This document shows positions 4,692 to 31,749 of a stretch of DNA of 64,000 nucleotides, piece after piece (the stretch's first letter is position 1; every line of letters starts with the position of its first letter). The stretch is from Rubrivivax sp. Its GTDB lineage: Bacteria > Pseudomonadota > Gammaproteobacteria > Burkholderiales > Burkholderiaceae_C. The stretch is from NCBI GenBank assembly GCA_016789955.1, contig JAEUPB010000072.1, positions 44,021 to 108,020 on the forward strand, in the 5' to 3' direction. The notes beneath the pieces were generated by a model that was not told the DNA's origin, did no database searches, and saw nothing but the letters and a program-made list of their open reading frames with translations. A program made the position numbers and the translations under genes.

Positions 4692-5773
4692 CGCACCCGC
4701 TCCGCCGCCGCACCCTCCTCGCCGCCGGCCTGCTCGGCAGCAGCACGCTCGCGAGCGCGCAGACGCCGCCGCGCCCGGCGGCCTCGCGGCCCGCAGGCAC
4801 GCCGGCACCCGCGCGGGCCGGCGCGGCGCCCGCCGCCGCGGCCGCTGCAGCCGCCCCGCGCGTGGCACCCGCTGCCGCCGGCGCCTGGCCCACGCAGACG
4901 GTGAAGATCCTCGTCGGCTTCCCCGCAGGCTCCACGCCCGACCTGTCGGCGCGCATCCTGGCCGAGGCGCTGGCCAAGCCGCTGGGGCAGTCGGTGGTGG
5001 TCGAGAACCGCCCCGGAGCCTCGGGCAACATCGCTGCCGACCTCGTGGCCAAGGCGCGCGACGACCACACGCTGGGCGTCGTGATCAACGGCAACCTGAC
5101 CTCGGCCAGGATGCTGAACCCGAAGCTGCCGTTCGACCCGGCGAAGGACTTCACGCTGCTGTCGCTGCTGACCACCGCCCCGCTGGCGCTGGTGACGCAG
5201 GCCAGCCAACCGGCAGGTGCCGAGTTCTTCACCGCCGCGCGTGACGCCGGCAAGAAGTGGAACTACGGCTCGGTGGGCATCGGCTCGGTGGGGCACCTGG
5301 GCCTGGAGTACCTGAAGAGCAAGGCCGGCCGCTTCGAGGCCGTGCACGTGCCCTACAACGGCAACCCGGCCGTCATCACCGCGCTGATCCAGGGCGACGT
5401 GCAGATGGCGCTGATGCCGCCCGGCATCGCGCTGCCTCAGATCCGCGCCGGCAAGCTGCGTGCGATCGGCCTCACCGGTGGCCGCAGCACGCTGGCGCCG
5501 GAGATCCCGTCGCTGCAGTCGCTGGGCGTGCCGTTGTACGACCTCGAGGTGTGGACGGCGCTGGTCGGCCCGGCCAGCCTGTCGGCCGCCGCGCAGGCGC
5601 GGCTGGCCGCCGAGGTGCCGGCGCAGGTGCGCAGCGCCGAGGTGCGCCAGCGCCTCTTCAACGCCGGCTGGCAGGCGCAGGGCAGCGCGCCCGAGGGCCT
5701 GAAGCTGCGCGTGAAGAGCGAGACCGCGGTGATGGGCGGGATCATCGCGATGCAGGGCATCACGGCGCAGTGA
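4688..5773 (+). CDS. Tripartite tricarboxylate transporter receptor, Bug family
   Basis: A 361-residue periplasmic solute-binding protein. A twin-arginine-like leader ([20 protein letters not shown]) is followed by a low-complexity Ala/Pro stretch up to residue 65, longer than usual. The Bug core then begins: [52 protein letters not shown], with later family segments [22 protein letters not shown] and GKLRAIGL. Bug proteins bind carboxylates and other small anions, often without a cognate transporter nearby, as here. Its ATG overlaps copA's stop and its stop overlaps the oxidoreductase start. Confidence 0.92.
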
Positions 5774-7107
5774 GTTTCATCGCCGAGCCGGCGCGGCACA
5801 CCGAGGTCCTCGGTGAGTTCGACGTGGTCGTCGCCGGCGGCGGGCCCGCCGGCTCGGCCGCCGCGGTCAGCGCCGCACGGCACGGCGCGCGCACGCTGCT
5901 GGTGGAGCGCTACGGCTTCCTCGGCGGCATGGGCACTGCCGGCGGCGTGACGAACTTCGCCGGCCTCTACGGCCGCCGCGGCGGGCAGATGCAGCAGCTG
6001 GTGCGCGGCGTCGTCGACGAGCTGCTCGCACGCATCGACGCGCTCGGCGGCCTGAACGCGCCGCAGGACGGGCTGCAGGGCCGCATCCGCGTGCGCTCGT
6101 ACGACGTGCCGGCCTACCAGTGCGCGGCCGACCAGTGGCTCGCGGCGGCCGGCGCGCAGGTGCTGTTCCACGCCTGGATCTGCGGCGTGGCGATGGGCGC
6201 CGACGACACGCTCGATGCGCTGATCGTCGAGACCAAGTCCGGCCGCCGAGCGGTGCGCGCGCGCCAGTTCATCGACGCCACCGGCGACGCCGACGTGAGC
6301 CACCTCGCCGGCGTGCCCACCGAGTGGGGCGACGGCGCCGGCAACGCGCTGTACCCGAGCACGATGTGCCGCATCGGCGGCGTCGATGCGCCGCGTGCGC
6401 TCGACGCGGTGGGCGAGTTCAAGGCCATCGAGCGGCTGATGGACGCCGCCGCGGGCCGCTATGCGTTCCCGCGCCGCGGCGCCATCCTCAGGCCGCAGAA
6501 GGACCCGACGGTCTGGCGCGCCAACGTCACGCAGTTGCGCAACGCCGAAGGCCGCGCGGTGGACGCCACCGACGCGCATCAGCTCAGCGCGGCCGAGGCC
6601 GAGGGGCGGCGGCAGATCGTCGACTACCTGCGGTTCCTGCGCGCCGAGGTGCCCGGCTTCGAGCGCGCGACCGTGCTCGACATCGCGCCTCAGATCGGCG
6701 TGCGCGAGACGCGCCGCGTGCGCTGCGCGACGATGCTCACCGCCGAGCACGTGCTGGGCGGCGCGCGCTTTCCCGACGCGATCGGCCTGAACGCCTGGCC
6801 GATCGAGCAGCATGTCGACGGCGGCATCGCCTGGGCCTTTCCGCGCGACCCCGACAACGCCTGCAACCAGCTGCCCTTCGGCATGCTGGTGCCCGCGCGC
6901 ATCGGCAACCTGCTGGTGGCCGGCCGCTGTGCAGGCATGGAGCACCTCGGGCAGGCGGCGGCGCGCGTCAGCGGCGGCTGCTTCGTGATGGGCCAGGCGG
7001 CCGGCACCGCGGCGGCGCTGCGGGTGCAGGACAGGTTTTCGTTGGGGCGGTTGCAGCAGGTGTTGCACCAGGACGGGGTGGAACTGGGCCAGCCGGCCGC
7101 TGGCTGA
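5770..7107 (+). CDS. FAD-dependent oxidoreductase (FAD_oxidored type)
   Basis: A 445-residue flavoprotein. The N-terminal FAD-binding dinucleotide fold is clear: [31 protein letters not shown], then [15 protein letters not shown]. The C-terminal flavin segment ([37 protein letters not shown]) is the signature of FAD-dependent oxidoreductases related to fumarate-reductase-like flavoproteins. The start is GTG 5770, overlapping the Bug gene's stop by four bases. Coupling suggests it oxidises or reduces a ligand captured by that Bug protein, but the substrate is not identifiable from sequence. Confidence 0.88.
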
Positions 7108-7132: not shown

Positions 7133-7264
7133 GTGCGGAAGGTCAACCGTCCTTTCCGGCACTACTTTCCCCCGCTCCGCGCGGGGATCGCATCCGAAGA
7201 TCCGGTGTCATCGAGCGCATCTGTCACCGCCCCGGGCGGGTGGTGCGGCGCCGAGGGAGGCACC

Positions 7265-8794
7265 ATGAAACTGAGCTGCAAGCTGCCGCTGATGCTGACG
7301 GCCATGCTCGTCGCGACGCTCGTCGCGGCCGGAGTCGGGCTGCACGGGCTGAACCGCGCGCTGGACATCTACGTCACCGATGTGGATCCGCGCAACGACG
7401 ATGCGCGCGAGGTCGCCCTGCTGTCGTCGACGTTCAAGACGCAGGTGCAGGAATGGAAGAACGTCCTGCTGCGGGGCAAGGACCCGAAAGCCCTGGAGCG
7501 GCACTGGGGAGAGTTCCAGAAGCTCGAGGGCGAGGTCGGTTCGGTCTCCGCGCGGATCATCGGGCGCATGCCCGATGGCGAGGCACGCCGGCTGGTGGCG
7601 GACTTCGCGTCGGCGCATGCCACGATGGGCCGCAACTACCGCAAGGGCCACGCCGCGTTCCTTGCGGCAGGGCTCGATCCGGTCGTCGGCGACACCGCCG
7701 TCAAGGGCATGGACCGCGAGCCCGCGAAGCTCCTGCTGGCGGCCGAGCAGAAGGTGGCCGCACTGGCCGACCAGGCGTCCACCGAGGCCGCGGAGCGGGC
7801 GCAGCGCTCCCTGGTGACCAGCGTCACGACGCTGCTGACGGTCTTCGGCGCGTGCCTGTGTGCCGGCATCGTCTGGAGCCGGCGCCTGGTGAGGCCGCTG
7901 GCGCAGGCTGCCACGGTGGCGCGCGCCGTGGCCGAGGGCGACCTGACGCAGCCGGTGCCGCCGACCACCCCCGACGAGGTGGGCGAGCTGATCACGGCGC
8001 TCGGGCGCATGCAGCAGAGCCTGTCGTCCCTGGTGGGCACGGTGCGCGACGGCGCCCAGGGCGTGGCCACGGCCAGTTCGCAGATCGCCCAGGGCAACAG
8101 CGATCTGAGCGCGCGCACCGAACAGCAGGCTGCGGCCGTCGAGCAGACGTCGGCCACGATGACGCAGCTGAGCACCACCGTGCGCAGCACCGCCGAGAAC
8201 GCGCAGCAGGCCGACCGGATGGCGCAGTCCGCGTCCGAGGTCGCCGCCCGGGGCGGCTCGGTGATGAGCGAGTTCGTGCAGACGATGCGCGGCATCGAGG
8301 AGAGCTCGCGTCGCATCGCCGAGATCATCGGCACCATCGACGGCATCGCCTTCCAGACCAACATCCTGGCGCTCAACGCCGCGGTGGAGGCGGCGCGCGC
8401 CGGCGAGCAGGGGCGCGGCTTCGCGGTCGTCGCCGGCGAAGTGCGCACGCTGGCGCAGCGCAGCGCCGAGGCCTCGCGCGAGATCCGGCGGCTCATCGGC
8501 GAGAGCGTCGAGCGCGTGGGCCAGGGGTCGGCCCTCGTCGAGCGCGTGGGCAGCACGATGCAGGACGTGGGGGGCTCGATCCAGCGCGTGTCCCAGATCG
8601 TGCAGGAGATCAGTGCGGCCAGCCGCGAGCAGGCGCTCGGCGTCGGACAGGTCGAGCAGGCGGTGGGGCAGATCGACCGCACGACGCAGCACAACGCGGC
8701 GCTGGTCGAGGAGTCGGCCGCCGCGGCCGAGAGCCTGGAGACGCAGGCGTCCCGCCTGGTCCAGGCCGTGGCGGTGTTCAAGCTCGCCACCTGA
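7265..8794 (+). CDS. Methyl-accepting chemotaxis protein
   Basis: A 509-residue membrane chemoreceptor. The first membrane helix ([20 protein letters not shown]) is followed by a roughly 160-residue periplasmic four-helix sensor, a second membrane helix near 186-208 ([16 protein letters not shown]), a HAMP domain ([23 protein letters not shown]) and the cytoplasmic signalling domain. The conserved hairpin tip [20 protein letters not shown] lies near 375-395, where CheA and CheW dock. No C-terminal CheR-binding pentapeptide is seen. A strong ribosome-binding site (GAGGGAGG) precedes the ATG. Ligand unknown. Confidence 0.96.
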
Positions 8795-8892
8795 CGCCGC
8801 CGGGGCCGGCCTCGACGGGGGCCTCGCCCGGCGGCGCGGCGCAGCAGGAATCGTCAAGACGCGCGGCCGCGACGCCCGTATCGTGGCCGGCC

Positions 8893-9303
8893 ATGAAGAG
8901 CGTAGCGATCCGTTGGGGCGCCGTGGCCGGCGCGCTGCTGCTGGCCGAGGCGGTGCTGGTCGGCGCCGCGTTCGCGTGGGTGGCGATCTACAGCCACCTG
9001 CTGAACCCGGGCCAGCCGATCGCCATCTACCAGGGCCATGCGCAGGCGTCGGGGCCGTGGGTGTCCATCCTCGTCGGGATGCCGCTGTTCGCGGCGATCG
9101 GCTGCCGCCTGCCCGGGCCGCCGGCCACCGCCTGGGCGTTCATCGCCGCCTACCTCGTGCTCGACGCCGCGGTGCTGCTGGCGGCTGCCGGCGCGGCGCT
9201 GCCGGCAGGGCTGGTGGTCGCGAGCTACGCGAGCAAGGGGCTCGCGCTGGTGGCCGGACGCCGCTGCCAGCGGGCGCGCCGACCCGCTGCCGCGGGCGCA
9301 TGA
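8893..9303 (+). CDS. Four-helix membrane protein of unknown function
   Basis: A 136-residue protein with about four hydrophobic segments (AVAGALLLAEAVLVGAAFAWVAI, ILVGMPLFAAIGCRL, WAFIAAYLVLDAAVLLAAAGAAL, GLVVASYASKGLALV) and a short basic tail. I do not recognise a family. Its stop overlaps the start of the AraC-type regulator as ATGA, so the two are translated together; proteins in this position are sometimes targets of their partner regulator's ligand response, but this is inference. Confidence 0.7.
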   Translation: MKSVAIRWGAVAGALLLAEAVLVGAAFAWVAIYSHLLNPGQPIAIYQGHAQASGPWVSILVGMPLFAAIGCRLPGPPATAWAFIAAYLVLDAAVLLAAAGAALPAGLVVASYASKGLALVAGRRCQRARRPAAAGA

Positions 9304-10178
9304 ACGACGCACTGGCGCGGCTGCTGCCGCTGCTCGTGCATGTGCAGGCGCAGCTCGACGGCGACCTGTCGGCCGCGGCGCTGGCCCGGCACGCCGGGCT
9401 GTCGGTGTCGCGGCTGCACCGGCTGTTCGTCGCCGCCACCGGCGAGACGCCGAAGGCCTACGTCACGCGGCTGCGTCTGGAGCGGGCCGCGTTCCGGCTG
9501 CACCTGCACGAGGCAACGCTGCTCGAACTGGCGCTGGACAGCGGCTACCGGCACCACGAGACCTTCACGCGCGCCTTCGTCCGCCACCACGGGGTGCCGC
9601 CGGGCGCCTATCGCTCGGCTGCGCGCCGCAGGCGCGGCGATCAAGCCCAGCGGGCCCCGGTGCCGCGGCACCCGGCGGGGCTGGCGCCACTGGCCTACGA
9701 ATTGTCGGCCTCGCGCGTGCAGCGGCTGCGCGCGCAGCATCTGGCCTTCGTGCGCCACGTCGGGCCGTACGAGGAGGTCCCCGGCAGCCTGTTCGATGAG
9801 TTGCTGGACTGGGCACAGGGCTGCCGGCTGCCGGGGCCTTGGATCTGGCTGGGCATCGGCCACGACGCGCCGTCGACCACCGCCGCCGACCGGCTGCGCT
9901 TCGACGCCGCGGTGGTCGTGCCGCGGCCGTTCGCGCCTTCCGGCCGGGTGGCCTGCCAGCTGCTGCCCGAAGGCCTGTATGCAGTGGTCACGCACGTGGG
10001 GCCGTTCGGCACGCTGCCGCAGGCCTACGCGCAGGCGTATGTCCAGGCTCTGGCGCTGCCCGGCCATCGGCTGGTGGGGCTGCCGGCAGTGGAGATCTAC
10101 CGGGCGGCACGCGTCGACATCCGGCACCGGCTGAACCAGACGGACATCTGCCTGCCGGTGCAGCGCGCTGCGGGCTGA
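9300..10178 (+). CDS. AraC-family regulator with GyrI-like effector domain
   Basis: A 292-residue cytoplasmic transcription factor. Residues 1-105 are an AraC/XylS double helix-turn-helix (LSAAALARHAGLSVSRLHRLF and LLELALDSGYRHHETFTRAF, ending in FVRHHGVPPGAYR). Residues about 130-290 form a GyrI/BmrR-type small-molecule domain (LRAQHLAFVRHVGPYEEVPGSLFDELLDWA, GLYAVVTHVGPFGTLPQAY). This is the Rob/SoxS-type layout used to sense amphipathic compounds. It overlaps the preceding membrane-protein gene by four bases (ATGA). Confidence 0.92.
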   Translation: MNDALARLLPLLVHVQAQLDGDLSAAALARHAGLSVSRLHRLFVAATGETPKAYVTRLRLERAAFRLHLHEATLLELALDSGYRHHETFTRAFVRHHGVPPGAYRSAARRRRGDQAQRAPVPRHPAGLAPLAYELSASRVQRLRAQHLAFVRHVGPYEEVPGSLFDELLDWAQGCRLPGPWIWLGIGHDAPSTTAADRLRFDAAVVVPRPFAPSGRVACQLLPEGLYAVVTHVGPFGTLPQAYAQAYVQALALPGHRLVGLPAVEIYRAARVDIRHRLNQTDICLPVQRAAG

Positions 10179-29359: not shown

Positions 29360-29788
29360 ATGTCCGATGCCACCAAGACCTCTCTCGTCATCGCCGGCCG
29401 CCTGCTGCTGGCGCTGATGTTCGTGCTGGCCGGCTTCAGCAAGCTCGGCAACCTCGAAGGCACCGCCGGCTACATCGCCTCGGGCGGCCTGCCGATGGCC
29501 TCCGTGCTCGCGGTGATCGTCGGGCTGCTCGAACTGTTCGGCGGCCTCGCCATCGCGGTCGGCTTCCAGGCCCGCTGGGCGGCGTTGGCGCTGGGCCTCT
29601 TCACGCTCGCCGCCACGCTGCTCTTCCACCGCTTCTGGGCCGTGCCCGCCGAGCAGGCCTTCGTGCAGCAGCTGATGTTCATGAAGAACCTGTCGGTGGC
29701 CGGCGGCCTGTTCCTGGTCGCCGCCTTCGGCGCCGGCCCGGCCAGCATCGACAACGCGCGCAAGCCGGTGCAGCTGCGCACGGCCTGA
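29360..29788 (+). CDS. DoxX family membrane protein
   Basis: A 142-residue four-helix inner-membrane protein. The DoxX signature is clear: GRLLLALMFVLAGFSKL near the start, then VLAVIVGLLELFGGLAIAVGFQARWAALALGLFTLAATLLFHRFW and a last helix after KNLSVAGGLFLVAAF. DoxX proteins are linked to quinone or thiol redox functions, which fits the redoxin gene just downstream. AAGGAGTG gives a strong ribosome-binding site. A GC-rich hairpin at 29824-29845 follows. Confidence 0.93.
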   Translation: MSDATKTSLVIAGRLLLALMFVLAGFSKLGNLEGTAGYIASGGLPMASVLAVIVGLLELFGGLAIAVGFQARWAALALGLFTLAATLLFHRFWAVPAEQAFVQQLMFMKNLSVAGGLFLVAAFGAGPASIDNARKPVQLRTA

Positions 29789-29892: not shown

Positions 29893-31014
29893 ATGATCAC
29901 CCTCCTCCACGAACAACGCCGCACCATGCTGGCCAGCTCCGGCGCCCACGCCGACGGCGAGGCCCTGTGGCTCACCGCCGCCGACATCGAGGCGGCCACC
30001 GGCTGGCAGTGGAAGCCCGAGGGGCTGTGCCTGGGCGACGTGTGCCGGCCGATCCCACCGGCGGCGCGCGCGACGGTGACGCGGGCGTCGGCCGAAGGCG
30101 AGCCGCAGCTCGACCTGGCGGCGATGTGGCGCCGCGCCGGCAACCCGGTGGTGCGCGACGCCGCCGGCGAGACCTGGGTGCTGGGCACCGGCGCCGCCGA
30201 GCGCCGCGCGGCGCTCGAGACGCTCGAGGCACCCGACTTCGCCTTGCCGGACCTCGACGGACGCGTGCACCGCCTCTCGGACCTGCGCGGCCGCAAGGTC
30301 TTTCTCGCCACCTGGGCGAGCTGGTGAGGCTGCCGGCTGGACTTGCCCGTGTGGCAGTCGCTGGTGGAGGAGCTGCAGGGCGAGGCCTTCGAGGTGGTGG
30401 TGGTGGCGCTGGACAGCGCCGAAGCGGCGCGGCCGTGGATCGAGGCCGCAAAGCCGACCTACCCGTGCCTGATCGATGCCGGCCACCACGTGGCCGCGCT
30501 CTACAACTTCGTCAACGTGCCGCAGGCGGCGTGGATCGACGAGGCCGGTCGCGTCGTGCGCCCGCCCGAGACCGCGGGGTCCACCGACGGCTTCCGCGCG
30601 CTCGACCGCCGCACCAACACGCTGCCCGAGGCCGTGGTGGCCGAGCGCCAGCGCGTGAAGGCCGCGTACTTCGACGCCGTGCGCGACTGGGTGCGGCGCG
30701 GCCCGCACAGCGCCAACGCGCTGGCGGCGCCGCAGGCCGCGGCGGCGCTGTCGCTGCCCGACGAGGCCGTGGCCGAGGCCCACGCGCACTTCCGGCTCGC
30801 GCAGCACTTGCGAGGACTGGGCCGAGAAGACGAGGCGCAGGCGGCGTATGCCCGCGCATCGGAGCTGCATCCGGACTCGTGGGCGATCTGGCGCCAGGCC
30901 GCACCGAAGGACGCGCGCGGCCTCGCTGCGGGCGATGCGTTCTGGGCCCGCGTGGAGGCGCTGGGCGAGCGGGCGTACTACCCGCCGGCCCGCATCGTGG
31001 CACCGGAGGGCTGA
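29893..31014 (+). CDS. Candidate selenoprotein: redoxin with WAxxUGC motif (in-frame TGA at 30325-30327)
   Basis: One reading frame of 374 codons with a single internal TGA. Upstream is a thioredoxin-fold entry (APDFALPDLDGRVHRLSDLRGRKVFLATWASW); the TGA is codon 145; the frame continues GCRLDLPVWQSLVEELQGEAFEVVVVALDS, the rest of a TlpA/ResA-like domain, and then a TPR-like helical tail. The TGA stands where redoxins have the resolving-site cysteine (WASWC), giving WASW-Sec-G-C. I recall a ResA-like family defined by WAxxUGC, which this fits. A TGA-distal stem-loop is present. No selA, selB or tRNA-Sec gene is in the window, so the alternative is a nonsense mutation. Confidence 0.82.
30330..30357 (+). 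promoter_or_regulatory. Candidate bacterial SECIS stem-loop
   Basis: Directly after the TGA, CTGCC (30330-30334) pairs with GGCAG (30353-30357), and GGC (30335-30337) with GCC (30345-30347), leaving a 7-base apical loop TGGACTT with a GG and a 5-base bulge on the 3' side. The position fits a bacterial SECIS element, but such elements vary greatly and the inner stem is short. Confidence 0.4.
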
Positions 31015-31041: not shown

Positions 31042-31749
31042 ATGCCGGGCGACGGGCGGGAGCCACTCGTGCGCAAGCTGTACACGTCGGAGCTGGACAT
31101 CGCCGAGGAGCACCTGGACGCCTTCGTGCAGTGGTACGCCTTCCGCCACGCGCCCGACATCTACCAGATCGGCTTCGGCGTCTGCACGTCGTACCGCAGC
31201 GTGGCCGGCGACATGGCGATCCTCGACCTCTACGAGATCGACAGCGTCGACATCTTCGACACGCCGCGCTACCGCGCGATCGCGCCCGCCGACCCGTACT
31301 TCGATGCCGTGCTGTCGCACCGCACCGGCAAGGCGCATTCGGTGTACTCGCAGGTCCACGTGTCGCCGGCGCCGGTGGACGACCGGGCGCTGCTGAACGC
31401 CGACTGGCTCAGCGTCGAGCGCTTCGACCACGCGGCCGATGACGACGAGCCTCTGCTGCGGTACCTGGCGGAAGGCGAGGCCGAGCGCATCCTGCTGGCC
31501 GGGGCCAAGCGCGTGCGGCTGGCGCGGCGCACGAAGGCCGGGCCGAAGCACTTCTCGAACCGCCCGCGCTGGATGCTGATGGTCGAGTGGGCGCAGCCGC
31601 CCGCGATCACCGACATCGGCGAGCGGCTGCAGGCGCGCTTCGGCAACCAGGTCACTCAGCGTTCGTTCTTCCGCGGCTACCGTCTCTATCCCTGGGCCGA
31701 CCGGCCCGACCTGTTGCCCGAGGCGGCGCGACCGCTGCGCGGGCGATGA
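31042..31749 (+). CDS. Protein of unknown function
   Basis: A 235-residue soluble protein I do not recognise. It seems to have two similar halves: YTSELDIAEEHLDAFVQWYAFRHAPDIYQIGFGVCTSYRS at the start, and PRWMLMVEWAQPPAITDIGERLQARFGNQVTQRSFFRGYRLYPW at the end. Helix-strand alternation suggests two ferredoxin-like (dimeric alpha-beta barrel/EthD-like) units, but this is a guess. GTG 31069, with GGGAG six bases upstream, may be the real start. It lies between the selenoprotein and a Bug receptor gene, 31 bases before the latter. Confidence 0.7.
   Translation: MPGDGREPLVRKLYTSELDIAEEHLDAFVQWYAFRHAPDIYQIGFGVCTSYRSVAGDMAILDLYEIDSVDIFDTPRYRAIAPADPYFDAVLSHRTGKAHSVYSQVHVSPAPVDDRALLNADWLSVERFDHAADDDEPLLRYLAEGEAERILLAGAKRVRLARRTKAGPKHFSNRPRWMLMVEWAQPPAITDIGERLQARFGNQVTQRSFFRGYRLYPWADRPDLLPEAARPLRGR

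Follow-up and report, generated by a model that had tools for sequence, protein, structure and literature searches.

An in-frame UGA in a ResA-like redoxin gene of Rubrivivax sp. is very probably read as selenocysteine

Does the single TGA that interrupts a redoxin frame in Rubrivivax sp. break the gene, or is it translated? The frame lies on the + strand at 29893..31014 of the window, i.e. the whole stretch of 64,000 nucleotides that was analysed, and the parts of the gene described below lie on the same strand. When the internal TGA (30325..30327) is read as U, the frame encodes 373 residues with U at position 145 and ends with a terminal TGA at 31012-31014. The context of the codon is ATWASW-U-GCRLDLPVW (with the wider upstream sequence, FLATWASWUGC), and the Cys of this U-G-C motif, Cys147 (30331..30333), does not vary in any of the 46 aligned members. 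The openness of the frame is weak evidence by itself, because in this G+C-rich DNA overlapping frames of the same stretch are open as well, over 491 aa on the + strand and 801 aa on the − strand.

Homology on both sides of the TGA is more informative. The NCBIfam profile NF041054 ("ResA-like WAxxUGC motif-containing protein", WAxxUGC_long) has 354 positions and a curated cut-off of 300 bits. The piece before the TGA matched profile positions 8-115 with 87 bits, the piece after it matched positions 117-351 with 180 bits, and the joined read-through protein scored 288 bits. A match to the AhpC-TSA domain (PF00578) likewise spans the codon, with domain positions 4-35 before it and 40-121 after it. 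Since homology is found on both sides, this indicates one protein beyond what chance openness would give, and the two matches that cross the TGA bear out the view of an earlier note on this DNA that the single frame makes one thioredoxin-fold protein. The downstream half is conserved about as well as the upstream half: amino-acid identity after the TGA was equal to or higher than that before it for seven of the eight relatives shown, the exception being L074 (0.59 after, 0.61 before). The family of ResA-like WAxxUGC selenoproteins to which the earlier note had referred does exist, as NF041054. The C-terminal tail, which the same note had called an extra, turned out to belong to the family, as the NF041054 match reaches residue 365.

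To see which codons relatives use in this column, named genomes were scanned, and the best 80 of 354 relatives were kept. Among these 80 the column holds TGA in 76, TGC in three and TGT in one, and no other codon; U/C-G-C is found in all 80 and in the window. The search leaned against TGA, because one of its two patterns required a Cys codon at the motif position. Among 399 genomes of the same order, the eight best NF041054 matches, including that of the window, scored 281-499 bits over at least 309 of the 354 positions, and each has one internal TGA, located at the motif. The next match in the order (L028, in genome G100) reached 107 bits; this relative is shorter, has U-x-C and carries a TGA too. 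A search of 200 genomes of the same family gave the gene in three others at E 1e-40 (G572, G436 and G442), all three with TGC. The TGA was thus correctly taken to stand in place of the motif Cys two residues before a retained Cys; a column with a sense codon other than Cys, or a decayed downstream half, was looked for in the homologues, and neither was seen. The Cys form of G436 (L141) carries an internal TAG in its tail and is perhaps a decaying copy, in a genome with neither selA nor a convincing tRNA-Sec.

As to distribution, the kept 80 loci place the branch mostly in Burkholderiales and Alphaproteobacteria, and the closest named relatives come from Burkholderiales assemblies, some of them labelled Rubrivivax. 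The gene is missing from two genomes of the window's genus, one of them with selA and the other without, and plasmids gave no match to the gene at 1e-40.

Insertion of selenocysteine (Sec) in bacteria calls for a hairpin after the UGA, and such a structure can be drawn here. The upper hairpin, GACUUGCC-CGUGU-GGCAGUC, lies at 30340..30359 with its loop at 30348-30352 and one bulged U in the 5' strand. The minimum-energy fold of the window sequence alone predicts an extended hairpin at 30332..30365 (z −1.0), in which a lower stem pairs 30332-30337 with 30360-30365. Conservation was then analysed in 82 TGA members, which comprise the 76 of the named-genome scan minus three duplicates (L067, L072 and L073, which repeat L027, L024 and L025), plus nine further loci (L020-L028, including the window and the shorter L028). 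With the T of TGA numbered 1, all 82 members can form the pairs 19-33, 20-32, 21-31, 22-30 and 23-29. The loop 24-28 is CGTGT in 80 of the 82 and in none of seven Cys homologues; a similar stem can still be folded in some of the latter (L077, L140 and L141). Pair 21-31 is G-C in 76 members and C-G in six, in which Glu replaces Gln155; this compensatory change counts as a single event, because the six form one clade with one distinct segment. The codons are biased as well. Val in the loop is encoded by GTG in 80 of 82 members, compared with 53% for the Val codons in the rest of these genes, and Leu in the stem by TTG in 45 of 82, compared with 9% in the rest; among the 57 distinct segments the counts are 55 for GTG and 33 for TTG, with binomial p-values that ignore relatedness. 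Folding energy was dropped as a sole argument, since the z-scores of the window hairpin are too weak (−2.05 for 23 nt, −1.01 for 42 nt and −0.34 for 51 nt). The E. coli fdhF SECIS likewise has a bulged U, with GU in its loop; the segment after the TGA of the host's own formate dehydrogenase can also form a hairpin with a bulged U, here with an AGUCU loop. Lying just after the UGA and tracking the TGA forms, the conserved hairpin behaves as expected of a SECIS-type element, and it is a putative binding site for SelB.

The machinery that would act on such a hairpin is present in the host. Its assembly (5.26 Mb in 116 contigs, completeness given as 79.6%) contains selA (582 bits), selB (446 bits) and selD (424 bits), all over their curated cut-offs, and a tRNA-Sec of 76.8 bits (gathering score 47). 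Three of them, selA, selB and tRNA-Sec, lie together on one strand of contig C48 within 3.5 kb, and selD is on C8. The four genes that the earlier note had proposed to look for are therefore all there, and a genome devoid of Sec machinery, which would have spoken against its reading, is not what was found. One in-frame TGA also occurs in the host's gene for the alpha subunit of formate dehydrogenase, which is full-length (1407 bits); the TGA in a second formate-dehydrogenase-like match, on C101, was set aside because it sits in an Ala-rich stretch. Within the 64 kb of the window there was no Rfam match at the gathering score, and tblastn at 1e-5 detected no selA, selB, selD or CoxS.

The Sec trait was then compared with the form of the gene in other genomes, for which selA was searched in those of 50 of the 80 named-scan loci and in 13 further genomes. 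Of the 54 genomes that carry the TGA form (46 plus 8, the window's own left out), 48 have selA over the cut-off, as do 108 of the 399 genomes of the order sample. Eight genomes of that sample have the long TGA form, and selA is present in seven of them (Fisher p 0.0006; 0.002 when the window's genome is left out; uncorrected for relatedness). Three of the six TGA-form genomes without selA (those of G103, L058 and L095) have a tRNA-Sec of 67-73 bits. The other three of the 54 (L069, L089 and L090) showed neither selA over the cut-off nor tRNA-Sec above background, L090 scoring 49.7 bits and L069 and L089 below 47, levels that are background elsewhere; it is possible that sequence is missing from these draft assemblies. 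Both L058 and L069 come from draft Burkholderiales genomes with the TGA form and no selA match, the former with a good tRNA-Sec and the latter not. Among seven genomes with the Cys form, four (G572 and three Myxococcaceae) have selA together with a tRNA-Sec that scores 65-80 bits, and three have neither selA nor tRNA-Sec above background (L075, 44.9 bits; G436, 44.1 bits; G442, 47.6 bits).

A maximum-likelihood tree of 88 proteins requires at least four changes between Sec and Cys. The Sec form of the window and the Cys form of G572 are sisters (100/98), as are the Sec form L058 and the Cys form of G442 (99/86), and the Myxococcaceae forms fall into a clade with Burkholderiales and Comamonadaceae forms (100/97). 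This last grouping suggests a transfer of the gene involving Myxococcaceae, as judged from the protein tree. A 100/100 split separates the window's branch from the Cys form L141 and four members with the motif WAPYUGC, which lie together on its other side.

This split bears on how the gene is to be classified. With Cys substituted for Sec the window protein scored 288 bits against NF041054, below the cut-off of 300, even though its WASWUGC fits WAxxUGC and its alignment is near full length (8-351 of the 354 profile positions). Scanned singly, five proteins of its branch (the window, L058, L074, L104 and L105) scored 282-301 bits, and of 46 members tested 15 pass the profile and 31 fall below it, when E 2.5e-89 is taken as a stand-in for 300 bits. 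The four WAPYUGC members scored 481-499 bits (506 for L020 in a separate scan), and their identity to the window's branch is 38-43%. By sequence comparison, then, the window protein has the architecture and motif of NF041054 and is no formal member of it by the NCBI rule, and its branch is a divergent sister branch of the known selenoprotein family. The other NCBIfam models that match the protein are ResA, TlpA and StoA.

The protein itself can be divided into three parts. The N-terminal domain (residues 1-105, 29893..30207), searched as residues 1-110, has no Pfam or PDB sequence match: none of 46 members matched Pfam at 0.01, and no PDB sequence matched at E 1. It contains the motif TGWxxKPEGxC-x4-C, and in the searches made was seen only in the WAxxUGC redoxin family; among 100 genomes of the order it was found in the window's genome alone, in a sample that held no other family members from the order. 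Its CX4C (30028..30045), formed by Cys46 (30028-30030) and Cys51 (30043-30045), is invariant in 46 of 46 members and in eight of eight of a smaller alignment; in the same 46 members U/C145 and Cys147 are invariant too. The AhpC-TSA/ResA-like thioredoxin-fold domain follows at about residues 106-228 (30208..30576; PF00578, 1.4e-18). At residues 246-356 (30628..30960) the secondary structure of the model predicts a helical, TPR-like region, in which TPR_2 and TPR_14 match below the Pfam cut-off. An AlphaFold2 model built with the 46 members had a mean pLDDT of 95.3 and a pTM of 0.92. The best Foldseek match was ResA (1st9, E 5.7e-11); since it covers 146 columns, it corresponds to one domain. 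Among the 50 Foldseek rows listed, all are ResA, TlpA, StoA, thioredoxin and similar oxidoreductases, except for the hypothetical protein 3u5r (two rows). A simple hydropathy scan detected no strongly hydrophobic signal or anchor segment in any of the 46 members, where the highest mean hydropathy of any 19-residue segment was 1.25, and because of this a cytosolic location is suggested. A membrane anchor or export is usual for ResA and TlpA.

Could the TGA be explained without selenocysteine? A nonsense mutation or a sequencing error in an ordinary Cys redoxin, i.e. a broken Cys or Trp codon in a pseudogene or a misassembly, might be imagined, as three relatives of the same family carry TGC in this column and the TAG of L141 shows that decay may occur. 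However, errors would hardly place TGA at exactly the same codon in 76 of 80 relatives, leave conservation downstream undiminished, let a hairpin and a codon bias track the TGA, and do so in a genome with complete Sec machinery; this explanation is very improbable. A mechanical listing gives two ORFs of 144 and 223 aa, so that a first frame stopping at the TGA and a second protein starting from the TTG at 30343 might be supposed. Such a break would fall inside the thioredoxin active site and cut through one AhpC-TSA domain, and the Cys homologues encode the uninterrupted form, so we give two genes hardly any credence. Next to no weight can be given, either, to reading of the TGA as Trp or to general read-through: a frame that is open under another code is indeed no proof of Sec, but in the 80 relatives the column is TGA or Cys and never Trp, the hairpin after the TGA is kept, and the gene uses TGA as its own terminal codon.

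A different doubt concerns the chemistry. The protein might be a selenoprotein whose UGC centre acts as a Prx-like peroxidase rather than as a disulfide reductase. Its domain does match AhpC-TSA besides ResA and TlpA, and UGC proteins are filed as "Prx-like" in surveys (PMC2398784, PMC9312934). On the other hand, the remaining NCBIfam matches are ResA, TlpA and StoA, the best fold match is ResA, and the peroxiredoxin motif PxxxTxxU, as given in PMC13188914, is absent at U145 (FLATWASWUGC). We therefore regard a peroxidase as unlikely. Preferably, the gene encodes a cytosolic selenoprotein in which Sec is inserted at codon 145 by means of the hairpin and U145-C147 forms the redox centre of a ResA/TlpA-like domain, a reading in which we have high confidence. 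On comparative sequence evidence the internal TGA is very probably read as selenocysteine, and the protein is likely to be a cytosolic thiol/selenol-disulfide oxidoreductase.

From the conservation of the UGA, the hairpin, the Sec machinery, the predicted fold and the cysteines, we infer the following course of events. SelB with Sec-tRNA(Sec) would bind the hairpin, whose upper part starts 12 nt past the UGA, and Sec would be inserted at codon 145. Sec145 and Cys147 would then form the redox centre of the ResA/TlpA-like thioredoxin-fold domain. Because the W-U-G-C loop is one residue shorter than the usual W-C-x-x-C, oxidation would produce a Se-S bridge that spans a single glycine. The pair may cycle between selenol-thiol and selenenylsulfide, swapping electrons with a small oxidant or with a disulfide in a protein, and might in this way reduce or exchange disulfides in the cytosol. 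Cys46 and Cys51 are a candidate second dithiol that could resolve the bridge or relay electrons, although the role of the CX4C may be redox, metal-binding or structural, and the helical tail is a candidate surface for binding a partner. A tentative extension, which we hold to be possible but rather doubtful, is a three-part cytosolic selenoenzyme in which the N-terminal CX4C dithiol exchanges electrons with the contracted U-G-C and the tail holds one dedicated partner. We know of no self-contained selenol-thiol relay of this kind among ResA/TlpA proteins.

The gene neighbourhood was also considered as a clue to function. Eight neighbours from the window were compared with the flanks of the 80 loci, and none proved to be a conserved neighbour pointing to a substrate: TctC was matched near 10 of 80 loci, an Old-Yellow-Enzyme-like protein and the neighbour w27161 near one each, and the other five near none, all of these counts being lower bounds because the flanks differ in length. 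At 25 of the 80 loci, among them L067, L103 and L104, the flanks contain a CoxS-like 2Fe-2S subunit (molybdenum hydroxylase); this link was set aside as a clue because 24 of the 25 belong to one Reyranella-rich clade of 25 rows (100/99). Neither selA nor selB lies near the gene in any of the 80 loci, and selD was seen once, as a fusion. This is the case at L105, in a gammaproteobacterial assembly, where a long protein (7229-9454) directly downstream of the selenoprotein gene has a SelD-like part, with 34.6% identity over 306 aa to the SelD of the window's genome; judging by its start, this part is fused to one that resembles an NAD(P)H dehydrogenase. At L059 a putative arsenite methyltransferase, by its appearance (5035-5946), lies on the strand of the gene, 55 bases upstream of it, and is absent near the other 79 loci. 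In the window the gene is flanked, on its own strand, by a DoxX-family protein upstream (29360-29788) and by a protein of 235 aa downstream (31042-31749) that matched no Pfam family; neither was matched near any of the 80 relatives.

How does the protein compare with known systems? Bacillus ResA (1st9 and others) has the thioredoxin-fold domain in common with it. In ResA, Cys74 and Cys77 (named in the PDB titles) form a CxxC, whereas the window protein has U-G-C, one residue shorter, and it also differs by its extra N- and C-terminal regions and by the lack of a visible membrane segment. Of the features that define ResA and TlpA, it thus shows the thioredoxin fold, and neither CxxC/UxxC nor a membrane anchor or export signal; it may work like a classical CxxC enzyme but is none.

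Short UxxC redoxins of the same order (L034, L049, L029 and L032) share with it the domain, a TGA after WASW and CGTG in the hairpin loop, and differ in having UxxC instead of UGC and in lacking both the N-terminal CX4C domain and the tail. These TlpA-like proteins (L034 at 1606) read WASW-TGA-xxC and have in common a 7-bp hairpin after the TGA, TGCCCTC-CGTGCA-GAGGGCA; other matches in the order with one TGA may be of the same kind. L028, with its TGA at oriented position 1594, encodes a U-S-C redoxin with a TPR-like tail and the CGTGT hairpin, without the N-terminal CX4C domain, and is perhaps an intermediate between the short and the long forms.

UGC proteins have been listed before. The GOS survey counts 46 Sec forms and 855 Cys forms under "Prx-like (UGC-containing)" (PMC2398784), a "UGC-containing Prx-like protein" appears again (PMC9312934), and a "UGC-containing TlpA disulfide reductase family protein" is listed elsewhere (PMC13188914). 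Compared by domain and motif alone, these share with the window protein pfam00578 or cd02966 and the UGC motif, and from this likeness they are probably NF041054 proteins. Functional work on a WAxxUGC redoxin was not found in the portions of the literature searched (PMC9312934, PMC13188914, PMC2398784, PMC5029168); the last of these makes no mention of UGC.

Taken together, the window gene is new as a member and ordinary in kind, and it is useful for extending annotation. It is plausible that the NF041054 rule misses it (288 bits against 300), and annotation might split each of the 31 of 46 members of its branch under the cut-off into two broken ORFs. The branch also offers clean natural experiments, with at least four changes between Sec and Cys and a CGTGT loop that is absent from all seven Cys forms; one such pair is the Sec form of the window beside the Cys form of its sister genome G572, which still has selA and tRNA-Sec.
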